Shown piece by piece: positions 27,627 to 33,586 of a stretch of 64,000 nucleotides of DNA (its first letter is position 1; each line of letters starts with the position of its first letter). This DNA is from Gaiellales bacterium (GTDB lineage: Bacteria; Actinomycetota; Thermoleophilia; Gaiellales; JAICJC01), in contig DASUHM010000048.1 in NCBI GenBank assembly GCA_036273515.1, positions 1 through 64,000 on the forward strand, given 5' to 3'. The notes under the pieces were generated by a model. It had not been told where the DNA came from and searched no databases. It saw nothing but the letters and a program-made list of their open reading frames with translations. Made by a program: the position numbers and the translations under genes.

Positions 27627-29282
27627 CTAGCAGGCGAGCGTGGTGGCGTCGACCGCCGCGGGGGCGGAGACGCTGCCGGACGCGTCGACGCTCTCGACCT
27701 GGAACGTGCGCGTGACGGCGCAGTGGAGCGAGCCGACGGCCGACGTCGTCCCGCTGACGGTGCGGATGAGCCGGCCGTTCACGAGCACGCGGTAGCCCAG
27801 GCCGGCGGCCGGGGCCGTCCACCGGAGCGCCACCGCGTTGCGCGACGGCGTCGCGGCCAGGCCGGTCGGCGCGGGCGGGCACGGCCCGGTGCGCACCCGG
27901 ACCGGCGCCTTGGCCGAGAGGTTCGAGACCATGTCGAGCGCGCGCACCGAGACGGTGTGGACGGTGTCGCAGGCGAGGCCGGTGACGGCGAACGTGCGGC
28001 TCGTGCCCTGATAGCGCAGCCGCGCATCGACGACGACCCGGTAGCCGCCGACGGCGATGTTGTCGCCCGCCCTCGTCCACCGGAGGCCGATCGAGGTCTC
28101 GGCCGGGTTCGGGCTGACGGACGGCGCGGCCGGCGGCGTCGGATCGGACTGCTCCACCAGCTTGAAGGCGTCCGCGACGATCGTCCCGCGGCCCGTCGAC
28201 GCCGAGCTCACCTGTAGCCGCCAGCCCGGCCCGGCGGCCAGGTTGTAGCTGCCGACGTACTGGAACTCGCCGCAGCCGCGGGCCTCGTCGACGGTCGCGG
28301 TGCGCAGGCCGTTCACGGTGTGGATCCCCACGCCGGCCCGCGTGGAGTCGGCCCCGCACGGCCAGCGCATGAGCAGGTCGTAGCGGTCGGTCGTGGGCAC
28401 TGACACCCGGAACTGCACCGGGCTCGAAGGCGAGTGCGGGGCCGCCGCCAGGTAGCTCGCCCCGTAGCGGCCGGGCTGGATCGTCGCGACGTGCCAGACG
28501 GAGGCGTCGTAGCGCACACCCGAGGGATCCGCATCGTCGACGACCTGCTGATAGGTGTCCTGCGCGTCGGCGCGCAGGTAGGCCATGTAGCGCGGCCAGT
28601 CCCACGTGCGGCCCGGATCGGTGTGGTGGTCGACGCCGCCCCACTCGCCGCGATGGTTCGGGTCGGGCACCTGGTAGTGGCCGATCACGTGCGTGCGATC
28701 GGGGGTGATCAGGTAGGTGTCGGCCAGCCAGGCGGCCAGCCTGGCGGAGCCGCGGTACTGGGCGTCCGGGAAGCGGGTGAGGTTCGTGAAACCGGCGTGC
28801 TCGATGCCGATCGAGCTCTCGTTGTAGGCCCAGTTGCCGGCGTGCCAGGCGATGTCCCGGTCGGGCACCATCTGGGCGACGCGGCCGGTCGACGAGACGA
28901 CGTAGTGGGCCGACGCCTCGGCGCGCGGGTTGCGGAACCAGGTGTACGTCGAGGCCCAGCTGCCCTCGGCCACGTGGATGACGAGCCGGCTGATCGGGTT
29001 GGTCAGCGGCCGGTCGGCGACGGTGTAATTGAGCGGGCTGGCGGGCTCCCACAGGGCGCCGGCGTAGTCCGGTCCCGACGTGGTCGAGGGGCGCAGCGCG
29101 TGGGAGAGCAGCGACCGCGGCGGCGACGCCAGGCCGGCCGAGTCGAGCGCGGAGCCCGACCGGACGTCGGCCTGCGTCGGAGCCGGGCCGGCGATGCAGA
29201 TGCCGGCGACGGCGATGCTGACCAGGGCCCAGACCCGGGACTGATGAAGCCTGCTCCGGGGCACGAGGAGCATGATCGGCAC
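27627..29282 (-). CDS. Secreted N-acetylmuramoyl-L-alanine amidase with golvesin-like and FN3 domains
   Basis: This 551-residue protein has a signal peptide (VWALVSIAVAGICIAGPAPTQA). An Amidase_2 domain spans about 85-235, with zinc ligands in VIHVAEG, SSIGIEHAG and VDHHTDPG. A golvesin/Xly-type carbohydrate-binding domain follows (about 260-375; from YDASVWHV to IVADAFKLVE). Two fibronectin type III repeats end the protein. It should cut the amide bond between muramic acid and the peptide in peptidoglycan outside the cell. It diverges from a TolB-like gene. Confidence 0.9.
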   Translation of the reverse strand: MPIMLLVPRSRLHQSRVWALVSIAVAGICIAGPAPTQADVRSGSALDSAGLASPPRSLLSHALRPSTTSGPDYAGALWEPASPLNYTVADRPLTNPISRLVIHVAEGSWASTYTWFRNPRAEASAHYVVSSTGRVAQMVPDRDIAWHAGNWAYNESSIGIEHAGFTNLTRFPDAQYRGSARLAAWLADTYLITPDRTHVIGHYQVPDPNHRGEWGGVDHHTDPGRTWDWPRYMAYLRADAQDTYQQVVDDADPSGVRYDASVWHVATIQPGRYGASYLAAAPHSPSSPVQFRVSVPTTDRYDLLMRWPCGADSTRAGVGIHTVNGLRTATVDEARGCGEFQYVGSYNLAAGPGWRLQVSSASTGRGTIVADAFKLVEQSDPTPPAAPSVSPNPAETSIGLRWTRAGDNIAVGGYRVVVDARLRYQGTSRTFAVTGLACDTVHTVSVRALDMVSNLSAKAPVRVRTGPCPPAPTGLAATPSRNAVALRWTAPAAGLGYRVLVNGRLIRTVSGTTSAVGSLHCAVTRTFQVESVDASGSVSAPAAVDATTLAC

Positions 29283-29368: not shown

Positions 29369-30514
29369 ATGATGCGAGCGACGATCCGGGGTGTGGCGGC
29401 AGGGCTTCTCGTCGGCGTGCTCGTCGCCGTCCCGGCCGCCGGGGCGATGCTGCACGGGAACGGCAAGATCGCGTTCGACCGCAACGTCAATCACAACTGG
29501 GACATCTACGTCAAGCAGCCGGCCAAGGGCAGCCCGGCGGTGCGGCTGACGACCAGCGCGGCCGACGACTTCGCCCCGTCGTTCGCGCCGGACGGCGGCC
29601 GCATCGCGTTCACCAGCGACCGCCACGGCAACTACGACGTCTACACGATGAACTCCGCCGGCCGCGACCTGCGCCGGATCACGACGAACCCGGGCAAGGA
29701 CGCCTTTCCCAGCTGGTCGCCGGACGGCCGCACTTTGGCGTTCGCCAGCAACCGCACCGGCGACTGGGAGATCTACACGACGAATGCGAACGGCTCCGGC
29801 AACCTGGTGCAGGTGACCCACCGGGCCGGCGTCGACAGCTTGCCGGTGTGGTCGCCGGACGGCACCCGCCTCGCCTTCGACGCCCCGCGCAACGGCCACT
29901 ACCAGCTCTGCGTCGTCCCGGCGGGCGGCGGCACGATCACGGTCCTCACGAGCGGCACCTCCCGAAGCGTGCAGCCGGCCTGGTCTCCGGACGGGTCGAA
30001 GATCGCGTTCGCAACCAACCGGTCGGGCTCGTTCGACATCTGGACGATCGCCGTCGGGTCGGGGACGCTCCACCGGGTGACGACGGACTCGGCGGCGGAG
30101 TTCCAGCCGGCGTGGTCGCCGGACGGCACGAAGCTCCTGTTCGCGCGGGCCACCGCGGCCGGCCAGACGATCGACGTCATGCCCGCCGGCGGTGGAGCTG
30201 CGACGGTCCTGACCGGGCTGCGCGGGAACGAGATCCCCCACTGGCAGCCGGTCACGGCGACGGCCGTCACGGCCGTCTCCCCGGGCCAGGGGCCCTCCGC
30301 CGGGGGCACGGCCGTCATGATCACCGGGCATGGGTTCGTGGCCGGCGCCCGGGTGCGGTTCGGCTCCGCCGCGGCGATCCACCTGGTCGTCCACTCGCCG
30401 ACGTCGATCACCGCGACGAGCCCGGCCGGCAATCCCGGCACCGTCGACGTCGTCGTCACCACGTCACGGGGCACGTCCGCCACTTCGCCCGCCGACCGGT
30501 TCACCTACCAGTGA
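29369..30514 (+). CDS. Secreted TolB-like beta-propeller with IPT/TIG domain
   Basis: The 381-residue protein has a signal peptide (GVAAGLLVGVLVAVPAAGA) and five or six PD40/TolB repeats, each recognisable by SPDG plus IAF or similar (FAPDGGRIAFTSDRHGNYD, WSPDGRTLAFASNRTGDWE, WSPDGSKIAFATNRSGSFD). A C-terminal IPT/TIG Ig-like domain covers about 295-381 (VSPGQGPSAGGTAVMITGHG). It is probably exported and binds surface or periplasmic partners; no catalytic residue is evident. Its stop TGA abuts the convergent gene's stop within TGATCA. Confidence 0.88.
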   Translation: MMRATIRGVAAGLLVGVLVAVPAAGAMLHGNGKIAFDRNVNHNWDIYVKQPAKGSPAVRLTTSAADDFAPSFAPDGGRIAFTSDRHGNYDVYTMNSAGRDLRRITTNPGKDAFPSWSPDGRTLAFASNRTGDWEIYTTNANGSGNLVQVTHRAGVDSLPVWSPDGTRLAFDAPRNGHYQLCVVPAGGGTITVLTSGTSRSVQPAWSPDGSKIAFATNRSGSFDIWTIAVGSGTLHRVTTDSAAEFQPAWSPDGTKLLFARATAAGQTIDVMPAGGGAATVLTGLRGNEIPHWQPVTATAVTAVSPGQGPSAGGTAVMITGHGFVAGARVRFGSAAAIHLVVHSPTSITATSPAGNPGTVDVVVTTSRGTSATSPADRFTYQ

Positions 30515-30955
30515 TCAGCCTGACGATGCCCGGACGTCCAGAGTCCCGAGCACCCGGCTGACTCCGGCCGCAAGGTCGGGGGCGTGCGCCGCCGAGCCGA
30601 CCACGACGTACAGGCACATCGCCCGCCCGGCGGTCGTGAAGAACCGCTGCAGGCCGCGCTGGCCGGGGCGGCGCTGCAGCAGGGTGGACGGCGAGAGCTC
30701 GGCCGGGTCGACCCGGTCGGGCGCGGGGTTCGCGAAGAGCGCGGCACCGGCCTCCTCGGGCCCGTAGTCGACCAGCACGACCACCACGCCGTCCGCCGGC
30801 AGCGTCCCGGTGGCGCGGGTGGCGAAGTCTCCGTCGGTCTCCGGCAGCGCCACGTTGGCGGCATGCAGCACCGGGCCGCCGCCCGCGCGCGTCCAGATGC
30901 GCCCGTCCCACCCGGTCGGGAGCTCGAGCGCGATGCCGTGGGCGGCCAGCCTCAT
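30515..30955 (-). CDS. Hypothetical protein, last gene of the MauA-like operon
   Basis: The 146-residue protein begins MRLAAHGIALELPTGWDG and has no signal peptide, membrane helix or known catalytic motif. It looks like a mixed alpha/beta domain with conserved-looking LPADGVVVVLVDYGPEEAG and QRFFTTAGRAMCLYVVVGS segments; there is a single cysteine. Its ATG overlaps the previous gene's stop by 4 bases, so it is translated with the membrane protein upstream. I do not recognise a family. Its place in the operon suggests it works with the redox proteins there. Confidence 0.65.
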   Translation of the reverse strand: MRLAAHGIALELPTGWDGRIWTRAGGGPVLHAANVALPETDGDFATRATGTLPADGVVVVLVDYGPEEAGAALFANPAPDRVDPAELSPSTLLQRRPGQRGLQRFFTTAGRAMCLYVVVGSAAHAPDLAAGVSRVLGTLDVRASSG

Positions 30956-31530
30956 GCGACCGCCAGCGCGAGCGCGATCAGCGCCGTCTCGGCGACGAGG
31001 GCGGCGACCCGGGCGGGCCGCTCCCACGCCACAAGTCGCCTGTCGAGGATCGCGAGCGCGCCCGGCTCGTGGACGCCTCCGGCGGCCAGGAGCGTCGCCG
31101 CCCGGGCCAGCCCGAACGCCCCGCCGACGATCGCACCGGCGGCCGCCGACCCCGCCAGGAACGCCGCCGCGCCGGTCGCATAGACCGCCGCGGTCGAGAC
31201 GATCGTGGTGACGCCCAGGCCGAGCTGGAGGCCGAACCCCGCGCCGTAGACCCAGCCGCGGTAGCGGTGCAGCCAGGCCTCGTTCACCTGCCGGCGCGGG
31301 CCCGGCGCGCGCAGGCCGGGAACGAGGTCGACGGCCACGGCGACCGCGACCGCCACGGCCAGCAGCCCGGTGCGGGCCGTCGCCGAGAGGTCGACGAGGC
31401 CGCCGGCCGCCCCAAGGGCGGCACCCAGGCCCGCGCCGGCGGCGGTCGCGGCCAGCGCGAAGGCCGTCACCGTGACCCCCCATCGCCTTCCCCGGCTCCG
31501 CTCGCCGAGCGGAGTGATGCTCCCGAGCAT
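30952..31530 (-). CDS. Polytopic membrane protein in the MauA-like operon
   Basis: The 192-residue protein has about five hydrophobic helices and a cytoplasmic-type linker RAPGPRRQVNEAWLHRYRGW. The following RGWVYGAGFGLQLGLGVTTI segment is the most distinctive. By position it could take the place of the MauF or CcdA-like membrane protein in methylamine dehydrogenase clusters, but it has no cysteine pair, so electron transfer across the membrane is not supported. It begins 70 bases after the thioredoxin-like gene. Confidence 0.6.
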   Translation of the reverse strand: MLGSITPLGERSRGRRWGVTVTAFALAATAAGAGLGAALGAAGGLVDLSATARTGLLAVAVAVAVAVDLVPGLRAPGPRRQVNEAWLHRYRGWVYGAGFGLQLGLGVTTIVSTAAVYATGAAAFLAGSAAAGAIVGGAFGLARAATLLAAGGVHEPGALAILDRRLVAWERPARVAALVAETALIALALAVA

Positions 31531-31600
31531 CGACTCTCCTCAGGGCGACCACAACGACCGCAGCCCGGCGACGATCGCGAGCGGCACCGCCACCACGACC

Positions 31601-32278
31601 TCAGCCGGCGCCGTCACCGTTCCCCTGGCCGTCCGGCCGGAGGCTGGGGTGGTCGGGGCCGATGCCGGCCGCCGCCAGCTCGCGCTCGACCCGCAGAGCG
31701 CGCTCGGCCGAGCCCTCGCCGCCGGCGATGTCGTCCTCGGCGTCGGACAGCAGCGAAAGCACCTGGTCGAAACGCTGTGCCGTGCCTTCGCCGGAGAGCT
31801 GACCGCGGCCGTCGACGTGTACGAAGTACGGGCTGGCGGGGACGTCGTAGTCGGCCCAGGCCCGGCTCGACATGACGACGCGCAGGCCCGACGGCGCCAG
31901 CTCCCGCAGCCGCACCGCGCTCTCGTGGCTCGGGTCCTTGGTGACCACGACCAGGCCGACGCCTTCGGGCAGGCGCGTGCGCGGATCGGCGAACGCCTCC
32001 CAGAAGCCGGCGCAGGTGCCGCACCCGGATGTGAGGAACGCGAGCAGGGTGGCCGAGCCGGGGCGGGTGACGCCGACGTGCATCGCGTCGCCGGCCAGCG
32101 TCACGCCGGAGACGTCGTGGGCGGCGGTCGAGGCGCGGGTCGGGGCGGCCGTCGCCGTGCCGCCGGGCTGGAGCTCGTCCAGCCGGCGCAGGATCTCGGC
32201 GTGGCTACGCAGCAGGCCGCCCACGAGGAGCACGAGCAGCACGAGCAGCAGCGTCTCGACGGTGACGACGGCGGTCAC
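31601..32278 (-). CDS. Membrane-anchored thioredoxin-like protein (MauD-like)
   Basis: GTG 32278 overlaps the stop of the cysteine-rich protein. The 225-residue protein has an N-terminal helix (VETLLLVLLVLLVGGLL), a linker, and a thioredoxin fold with the CxxC pair Cys86-Cys89 in LTSGCGTCAGFWEAF, plus the cis-proline loop VPASPYFVHVDG. In mau clusters MauD is a disulfide-handling protein needed for the light chain, and the direct coupling here to a cysteine-rich Tat protein suggests the same job. Confidence 0.8.
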   Translation of the reverse strand: MTAVVTVETLLLVLLVLLVGGLLRSHAEILRRLDELQPGGTATAAPTRASTAAHDVSGVTLAGDAMHVGVTRPGSATLLAFLTSGCGTCAGFWEAFADPRTRLPEGVGLVVVTKDPSHESAVRLRELAPSGLRVVMSSRAWADYDVPASPYFVHVDGRGQLSGEGTAQRFDQVLSLLSDAEDDIAGGEGSAERALRVERELAAAGIGPDHPSLRPDGQGNGDGAG

Positions 32279-32910
32279 AGCGCGCCTCCGCCGGCGCGGA
32301 GGCCGGTGTAGGGCGGCGCCGCCGCGCCCTTGACCAGGCAGGCCGCCTCGTGGCCGCAGGTGCGGTCGTCGACGAGGATGTGCCGCGAGCACTGGCCGGG
32401 GAACAGGCGGCCGGGGTTCTGGCAGGTGATCATGCGGCAGACGACCTCGGTCACCTTGCCGATGTGGGTGTTGCACTGGCCGTAGCGGAAGACGTTGCAA
32501 CAGGTCGAGCGGTGCCGGCAGAGGCCCTCGGCGCACGAGCAGCCGTGCGGGCAGCGCTGGCTCGGCAAGCGGTTGCAGTCGATGTAGTAGCGGACGCCCT
32601 CGGAGTGGCACAGCTTCGTGCCGCGGTAGTTGGTGCACTTCCACCAGCCGCCCATGAACGTGTACGGCGGGCAGGTGTTCGACCCGCCGGTGATCGTGCA
32701 GCAGAACTCGGTCCAGCCGTCGCAGCAAAGCGCGCCCGGGCGGCAGTCGCGGCAGGTGATGACCGCCTCGGCGCTCCCGGGCCGAAGCAGGTAGCGCAGC
32801 GGCGCGACGGCGAGCGCCGAGCCGCCGATGGCCACGCGGACGAGGATGCCGCGCCGCGACGTGCGCCGCTCGAGCAGCCGGGACGCGGTTGCGACGAGCC
32901 GGTCGCTCAT
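32275..32910 (-). CDS. Cysteine-rich Tat-exported protein, methylamine dehydrogenase light-chain-like
   Basis: The 211-residue protein starts with a twin-arginine-like signal (TSRRGILVRVAIGGSALAVA). The mature part has 22 cysteines, including CDGWTEFCC, NTCPPYTFMGGWWKC and QRCPHGCSC. The CPP...W...C and YIDC...RCPxxCxC pattern matches the MauA light chain, whose tryptophans 57 and 108 form the TTQ cofactor. A tryptophan is present at the first site (89 or 90), but the second, which precedes a Cys in MauA, is Val157 before Cys158. TTQ therefore cannot form by the known route. No heavy chain is nearby. Its start and stop overlap both neighbours. Confidence 0.75.
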   Translation of the reverse strand: MSDRLVATASRLLERRTSRRGILVRVAIGGSALAVAPLRYLLRPGSAEAVITCRDCRPGALCCDGWTEFCCTITGGSNTCPPYTFMGGWWKCTNYRGTKLCHSEGVRYYIDCNRLPSQRCPHGCSCAEGLCRHRSTCCNVFRYGQCNTHIGKVTEVVCRMITCQNPGRLFPGQCSRHILVDDRTCGHEAACLVKGAAAPPYTGLRAGGGAL

Positions 32911-33446
32911 GCGGCGCTCCGGCGCGGTCGGTAGGCGGCGAGCGCCTCGGGCAGGCGGCCGAGCACGAGCGTCACGGCATAGGCGGCCGCGAGGCAGCCG
33001 GCCACCAGGGCGACGCCGGCAAGCGGGGCGCGCGCGGCCAGCTCCGGCAGGCCGGGGGGCGGATCGAACGCGGCGCCCAGGGCGACGAGGGCCGCGCCGG
33101 CGTCGAAGCCGGAGTGCAGCGGCGACGGCGGCGCGTCGGCGCCGAAGCAGCCGCACGAGGCCGCCGGCTCGGCGGCCAGCAGCAGCCGAAGGGCGAACGC
33201 GGCGAGCACGGCGTACAGCGCGGCCATGAGCAGGAGAGCCGGCCGCGCCGGCGCGACGAGCACGAGGAGGCCGATCGCGACCTCCGCCGTGCCGACGAGG
33301 CGAGCCGGGAGCGCGCCCGAGGGCAGCCCGGCCGAGCGCAGCGCATCGGCCGCGGCGGCCGGCGAGCGCAGCTTGCCACCTCCCGCCACCACCAACACGA
33401 CCGCCAGCACGGAGACCAGCGGCCCCGCTACCGACGCGCCGACCAC
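32907..33446 (-). CDS. MauE/DoxX-like membrane protein
   Basis: The 179-residue protein has four or five helices in the MauE pattern: LAVVLVVAGGGKLRSP, then LPARLVGTAEVAIGLLVLVAP and a short loop with CGCFGAD, the cysteine motif often present in MauE-type proteins. MauE is needed for maturation of the methylamine dehydrogenase light chain and probably carries or shuttles thiols at the membrane. It starts at GTG 33446 and overlaps the cysteine-rich gene by 4 bases, so it opens the operon. Confidence 0.82.
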   Translation of the reverse strand: MVGASVAGPLVSVLAVVLVVAGGGKLRSPAAAADALRSAGLPSGALPARLVGTAEVAIGLLVLVAPARPALLLMAALYAVLAAFALRLLLAAEPAASCGCFGADAPPSPLHSGFDAGAALVALGAAFDPPPGLPELAARAPLAGVALVAGCLAAAYAVTLVLGRLPEALAAYRPRRSAA

Positions 33447-33521: not shown

Positions 33522-33586
33522 CGGGGTCAGACCCCGAACGCCGGCCGTGACAGTTCCGTTGCAGATCCGTTCGGGGTCTGACCCCG
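33522..33586. repeat. REP-like inverted repeat (18-base arms)
   Basis: CGGGGTCAGACCCCGAAC (33522-33539) and its exact reverse complement (33569-33586) are separated by 29 bases. Each arm contains the near-palindrome GGGGTCAGACCCC. It lies in the gap between the MauE-like and RNase D genes, ending one base before the RNase D stop codon. The form is that of a repetitive extragenic palindrome; it could also end transcription of the RNase D gene. Confidence 0.75.

Follow-up and report, generated by a model that had tools for sequence, protein, structure and literature searches.

The operon at positions 30515-33446 of the window, by which is meant the whole stretch of 64,000 nucleotides that was analysed, is on balance best explained as a Mau-type export and oxidative-folding module, dedicated to a cysteine-rich MauA-like head that is free of TTQ and shown at the cell envelope. 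It consists of five genes on the minus strand, overlapping or tightly spaced, that encode MauE-, MauA-, MauD- and MauF-like proteins and one unnamed protein. To judge from the sequence, what it makes is most likely a stable protein of the cell surface that binds or acts as a scaffold, and not a quinone dehydrogenase. The operon defines a surface-protein family whose product has no name in any protein database searched, yet it recurs across Actinomycetota. The features of the region are as follows.

32907-33446, minus strand: MauE-like membrane protein, 179 residues, GTG start, CxC motif (PF07291, E 1.2e-14)
32275-32910, minus strand: MauA-like Tat-exported protein (P0001), 211 residues, 22 cysteines, without a C-terminal extension (TIGR01409)
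32770-32910, minus strand: approximate Tat signal peptide of the MauA-like protein, residues 1-47, SRR motif (TIGR01409 at residues 17-49)
31601-32278, minus strand: MauD-like membrane-anchored thioredoxin-fold protein, 225 residues, GTG start, CGTC active site (TIGR02661, E 7e-4, a weak match below the cut-off)
30952-31530, minus strand: MauF-like polytopic membrane protein, 192 residues, no cysteines (hhalign to MauF; weak DsbD_2 match)
30515-30955, minus strand: small conserved protein, 146 residues, a constant member of the module found at about 100 loci
29369-30514, plus strand: secreted PD40 (TolB-like) beta-propeller with a C-terminal TIG domain (PD40 E 7e-54, TIG E 8e-13; TolB structures E 1e-27)

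The gene set and its kinship with Mau proteins

Overlaps of four bases occur at three junctions (MauE-like/MauA-like, MauA-like/MauD-like and MauF-like/small). An earlier note on this DNA had described five coupled genes here, for a MauE-like membrane protein, a Tat-exported protein with 22 cysteines, a MauD-like thioredoxin, a polytopic membrane protein and a small protein, and this description stands with one correction, in that the polytopic protein is by profile comparison a homologue of MauF, which had been overlooked and is new here. Profile-profile comparison (hhalign) against reference mau genes (from L044, L045 and L185-L190) gave 98.0% for the MauE-like protein against MauE (E 1.6e-13; reversed control 1.4%), 98.6% for the MauD-like protein against MauD (E 1.4e-15) and 98.1% over 137 columns for the polytopic protein against MauF (E 1.2e-13; reversed control 0.2%), with all reversed and mismatched controls for these helpers at or below 1.4%. 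The three homologues of the Mau-type maturation set are therefore present together, each at about 98%, and the MauE-like gene is the sole MauE in the genome of the window. The small protein has conserved W16, Q103, F105 (QxF), R111 and mostly C114, and has no family match in Pfam, NCBIfam, PHROG, PADLOC or PDB. Between the operon and an RNase D-like gene lie the perfect palindromes CGGGGTCAGACCCCG and CGGGGTCTGACCCCG, at 33522-33536 and 33572-33586, with three matches in the window at no more than one mismatch when 0.04 would be expected.

A first scan of genome contigs found 11 relatives of the MauA-like protein, and a profile search found the family in 32 of 397 genomes of the phylum, 28 of 66 of one class and 75 of 345 of another, that is in about one fifth to two fifths of the sampled genomes of two actinobacterial classes. 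None of the 40 genomes nearest to that of the window carries it, thus the distribution is patchy, and no relatives of P0001 were found in the viral contigs or plasmids searched. The same five-gene set recurs across Actinomycetota at nearly all of the approximately 100 relative loci that have enough flanking DNA, in a few orders, with E-A-D-F-small (29) and E-D-F-small-A (25) accompanied by other rearrangements that include split divergent units; at some loci the MauF-like gene was missed by the local profile. As the five genes are kept together despite rearrangement, this is strong evidence for a single functional module, and the association seen in the window is not due to chance. In one acidimicrobial lineage (L007:4559-6151, also L009 and L010) an opposite-strand ORF that looks LytR-CpsA-Psr-like by eye splits the E-A pair from D-F-small.

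The comparison of the MauA-like protein with MauA reached 95.7% with the signal peptide included, the mature domain on its own giving a weak score of 19-23 against 10-14 in reversed controls, and because of this weak score descent from MauA is probable and not proven. The relation to MauA that had been proposed leans on the signal peptide and gene context, the mature domain being probably homologous. The TSRR-type n-region of the Tat signal is common to the MauA-like protein and the MauA of Paracoccus and Novosphingobium, as is the ordered pattern N.CPPGT...W...C...DC to the family and MauA. The light-chain profile PF02975 matched none of 95 members, with the positive controls W01, W02 and W03 found, and none of 299 genomes of the class to which the window belongs. 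Single-sequence searches of Pfam, NCBIfam, PHROGs, PADLOC and PDB gave no match beyond the Tat signal, a profile search of PDB with the family gave no credible match, and no publication on the family was found in the open-access literature. The surface-protein family to which it belongs is uncharacterised. AlphaFold2 models from alignments of 10 and 12 sequences were unusable (pLDDT 35 and 46), and Foldseek returned no match.

It could be that the head is a disulfide-rich adhesion or lectin-like domain with no descent from MauA, and that it acquired the Mau helpers separately, as a general route for oxidative folding. The lack of any PF02975 match among the members and the weak mature-domain score are in keeping with this, as are the Streptomyces clusters in which mauE and mauD homologues are paired with cysteine-rich precursors (PMC7794033). 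However, the shared Tat n-region and the ordered cysteine and tryptophan pattern speak for common descent, as do the three co-inherited Mau helpers and the Thermomicrobium light chains that do match PF02975 and occur beside the same helpers, and an independent origin is considered unlikely.

TTQ residues and the partners of methylamine dehydrogenase

TTQ in the light chain of Paracoccus methylamine dehydrogenase is made from Trp57 and Trp108. The position of the first is occupied by W89/W90 in all 112 aligned members, with some uncertainty as to which of the two aligns exactly, and the equivalent of the second is V157 in the window protein, directly before C158, which aligns with Cys109 of MauA. 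The earlier note had placed Val157 at the second site, and this is borne out. Across the family the residue preceding C158 is mostly V, A, I, M, T or L and is never Trp, and a search for another tryptophan that might take the place of Trp108 found none within the 8 residues before C158 in any of the 112. Twelve members have no tryptophan beyond the WW pair, and the mature window protein has W66, W89 and W90 only.

The heavy-chain gene mauB (PF06433) was found in none of 40 carrier genomes, with three of three positive controls recovered, nor in the genome of the window. MauG (PF03150) is absent from the genome of the window and from 38 of the 40 carriers, being present in two. Beside the module of the relatives there is no conserved cytochrome, cupredoxin, oxygenase or other redox neighbour, nor among its conserved neighbours a radical SAM gene of the QhpD type (QhpC Cys-to-Asp/Glu thioethers). 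A divergent but true TTQ or CTQ amine dehydrogenase, with its second residue and heavy chain missed by alignment, would account for the MauE, MauD and MauF homologues and for the first tryptophan, yet it would have to do so with no second tryptophan in any member, with only the WW pair in twelve of them, with three tryptophans in the mature window protein, and in the face of the PF02975 and mauB results, and is highly improbable. MauE and MauD matches alone are no proof of methylamine use. The earlier suggestion that the maturation machinery now serves a product without TTQ, perhaps a disulfide-rich one, is supported by the missing second tryptophan, the missing mauB and the cysteine numbers and pairing described below.

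The residues that are invariant in all 112 members are G88-W89-W90, R107-Y108, D111-C112, F141-R142-Y143-G144 and C158-R159, and D111, the equivalent of Asp76 of MauA, is among them; D64, the equivalent of Asp32, is found in 57 of 112, both assignments coming from the weak mature-domain alignment. A structural or binding role of the head is plausible, although strict conservation of polar residues could instead be a sign of catalysis. One possibility is that oxidation of Trp89 and/or Trp90, or a cross-link from them to a further residue, takes place with the assistance of Asp111, giving a redox enzyme with another protein-derived cofactor for which the propeller or fused repeat is the analogue of the heavy chain. 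This would fit the invariance of W89, W90, R107, Y108, D111, the FRYG stretch and C158-R159, the alignment of D111 with the DC of MauA, and a maturation set and propeller linkage that mirror methylamine dehydrogenase. It is quite unlikely, as the genes have no oxygenase, MauG, cytochrome or cupredoxin as a conserved neighbour, the Asp32 equivalent is present in just 57 of 112, and most of the fused modules bind cell wall or carbohydrate instead of being propellers of one type. That the vicinal Trp89-Trp90 pair holds a new cofactor or cross-link, self-processed or made by the helpers, and so marks a widespread family of surface redox enzymes derived from or ancestral to the TTQ dehydrogenases, is likewise quite unlikely.

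Cysteines, surface modules and the beta-propeller

Members of the family have 16-28 cysteines, and the number is even in 107 of 112, which persists after clustering at 70% identity (53 of 55, p 4e-14) and at 60% (29 of 30, p 3e-8). The optional cysteines strictly co-occur, with C92-C185, C102-C196 and C167-C176 found together in 7, 8 and 5 cases and never singly, and C92 and C185 are both present in the window protein, whose 22 cysteines all lie within the mature part. This parity and pairing argue for disulfides and against a metal site, so that the head-domain cysteines would form disulfides; a cysteine-based metal site was rejected on the even counts and pairwise co-occurrence, and the metal-binding product that had been offered as one option is disfavoured. 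Of the helpers in the relatives, the MauD-like CxxC is kept in 98 of 105 and the MauE-like CxC in 97 of 98. MauE has been tied to disulfide formation in the methylamine dehydrogenase light chain (van der Palen 1997, as related in PMC7794033), and the mauE and mauD homologues that adjoin cysteine-rich precursors in Streptomyces clusters provide a precedent for another client (PMC7794033).

Most MauA-like relatives consist of the head followed by fused repeats of cell-wall, lectin or beta-propeller kinds. By Pfam, 95 members include 23 with LGFP, 8 with CWB2, 5 with SLH and 4 with FG-GAP extensions, the last rising to about 21 by motif, and lectin-like, Ig-like and other extensions also occur. 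The C-terminal extension of one member (L057) is homologous to Corynebacterium PS1/MytA (E 8e-25), in which the LGFP repeats are stalk-like and bind the cell wall (PMC11299179). On the strength of that description the view of LGFP repeats as a beta-propeller was dropped, and so was the wider assumption that all extensions are propellers. At 22 loci, for example L050:7263-8000, the gene immediately beside the MauA-like gene encodes a short exported protein of SLH-like type.

The window protein is one of those with no fused repeat, and the PD40 propeller gene, convergent to the operon and ending at 30514, directly abuts the operon end. Thus the earlier statement that there is no heavy chain is right as regards mauB, and it had overlooked this propeller as well as the way in which propellers or fused repeats accompany the head across the family. 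Such a propeller adjoins the operon at 10 of 15 unfused loci (the window, L002, L003, L047, L071, L145, L150 and L191-L193), a count that includes L191-L193, which were fetched after the propeller idea arose, and leaves outside it L065 and L074, which are cut at the contig end. Near fused members it is found in 0 of 81 within 500 bases and 1 of 81 within 2 kb, and the unfused loci L004, L147 and L153 have no propeller within reach. The propellers of several unfused loci bear TIG, DUF11 or SLH domains and are convergent, divergent or a coupled sixth gene. The Fisher p of 1e-6 for the association is discounted, as the tree shows about three changes of the unfused state, and hence few independent events lie behind it; PD40 genes may in addition be common in such genomes. 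The propeller at 29369-30514 is a candidate partner in trans of the MauA-like protein, and a partnership of head and propeller is what these loci suggest. Beside the propeller, the gene at 27627-29282 on the minus strand resembles by eye an N-acetylmuramoyl-L-alanine amidase that is secreted and has repeat domains at its C-terminus.

For the folding module favoured here, the Tat signal suggests that the head protein is exported by the Tat route, after which the MauD-like (CxxC), MauE-like (CxC) and cysteine-free MauF-like proteins would insert and proofread 8-14 disulfides outside the membrane, roles suggested by family homology and conserved active-site cysteines, with the small fifth protein as a constant accessory. 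The mature head would then act together with repeats, which are either fused to it (LGFP, CWB2, SLH, FG-GAP or lectin repeats) or, as in the window, supplied by an adjacent secreted beta-propeller, and the invariant GWW, RY..DC, FRYG and CR residues may form a functional site, possibly one for binding. With MauE, MauD and MauF homologues maintained apart from quinone cofactors, their part in folding could be told from their part in TTQ biogenesis and would become open to test.

Comparison with known systems

The mauFBEDACJG cluster of Paracoccus denitrificans (L044) shares with the module of the window its MauE, MauD and MauF homologues and a small Tat-exported cysteine-rich subunit, and MauA shares the first TTQ tryptophan position and, by the weak mature-domain alignment, what is probably the equivalent of Asp76. 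In contrast, the window module is without the second TTQ tryptophan, mauB, mauG and amicyanin, adds the small protein and, in the family, the fused surface modules, and the chains of the family have 16-28 cysteines where the mature chain of MauA has 12. The aralkylamine dehydrogenase cluster aauB-mauE-mauD-aauA of Pseudomonas (L187) has the same E-D-A core, whereas its aauB heavy chain and adjacent cytochromes are absent here.

The plasmid array TRD_RS11465-11410 of Thermomicrobium roseum (L116) has MauA-like chains without the second tryptophan, a propeller-like-MauE fusion and MauD-like and MauF-like genes, and differs in having several light chains, which are PF02975 members and are each paired with a MauB-like protein, and in that no small protein was seen. 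Within it (L116:13697-28133, NC_011961) MauB-like proteins of about 400 residues alternate with MauA-like cysteine-rich Tat proteins, of which several lack an annotation, and after them come the propeller-MauE fusion and the MauD-like and MauF-like genes. The proteins of about 400 residues match MauB (93%, E 3e-7) and precede most of the PF02975 light chains there, and the array is possibly an evolutionary bridge between methylamine dehydrogenase and the family of the window.

In the Streptomyces mauE/mauD clusters that are candidate RiPP clusters (decRiPPter, PMC7794033), Mau helpers likewise accompany a cysteine-rich product, and there is no methylamine dehydrogenase. Their precursors are short peptides, as the definition of a RiPP asks, whereas the window family has a Tat-exported protein of 190-800 residues (211 in the window, with relatives up to about 800), to which are added a MauF-like protein and a fifth gene that is constant. 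Finally, the LGFP domain of Corynebacterium MytA/PS1 has a homologue in the C-terminal extension that L057 and similar members carry, the head of MytA being a mycoloyltransferase and that of the L057-type members the cysteine-rich domain (PMC11299179).
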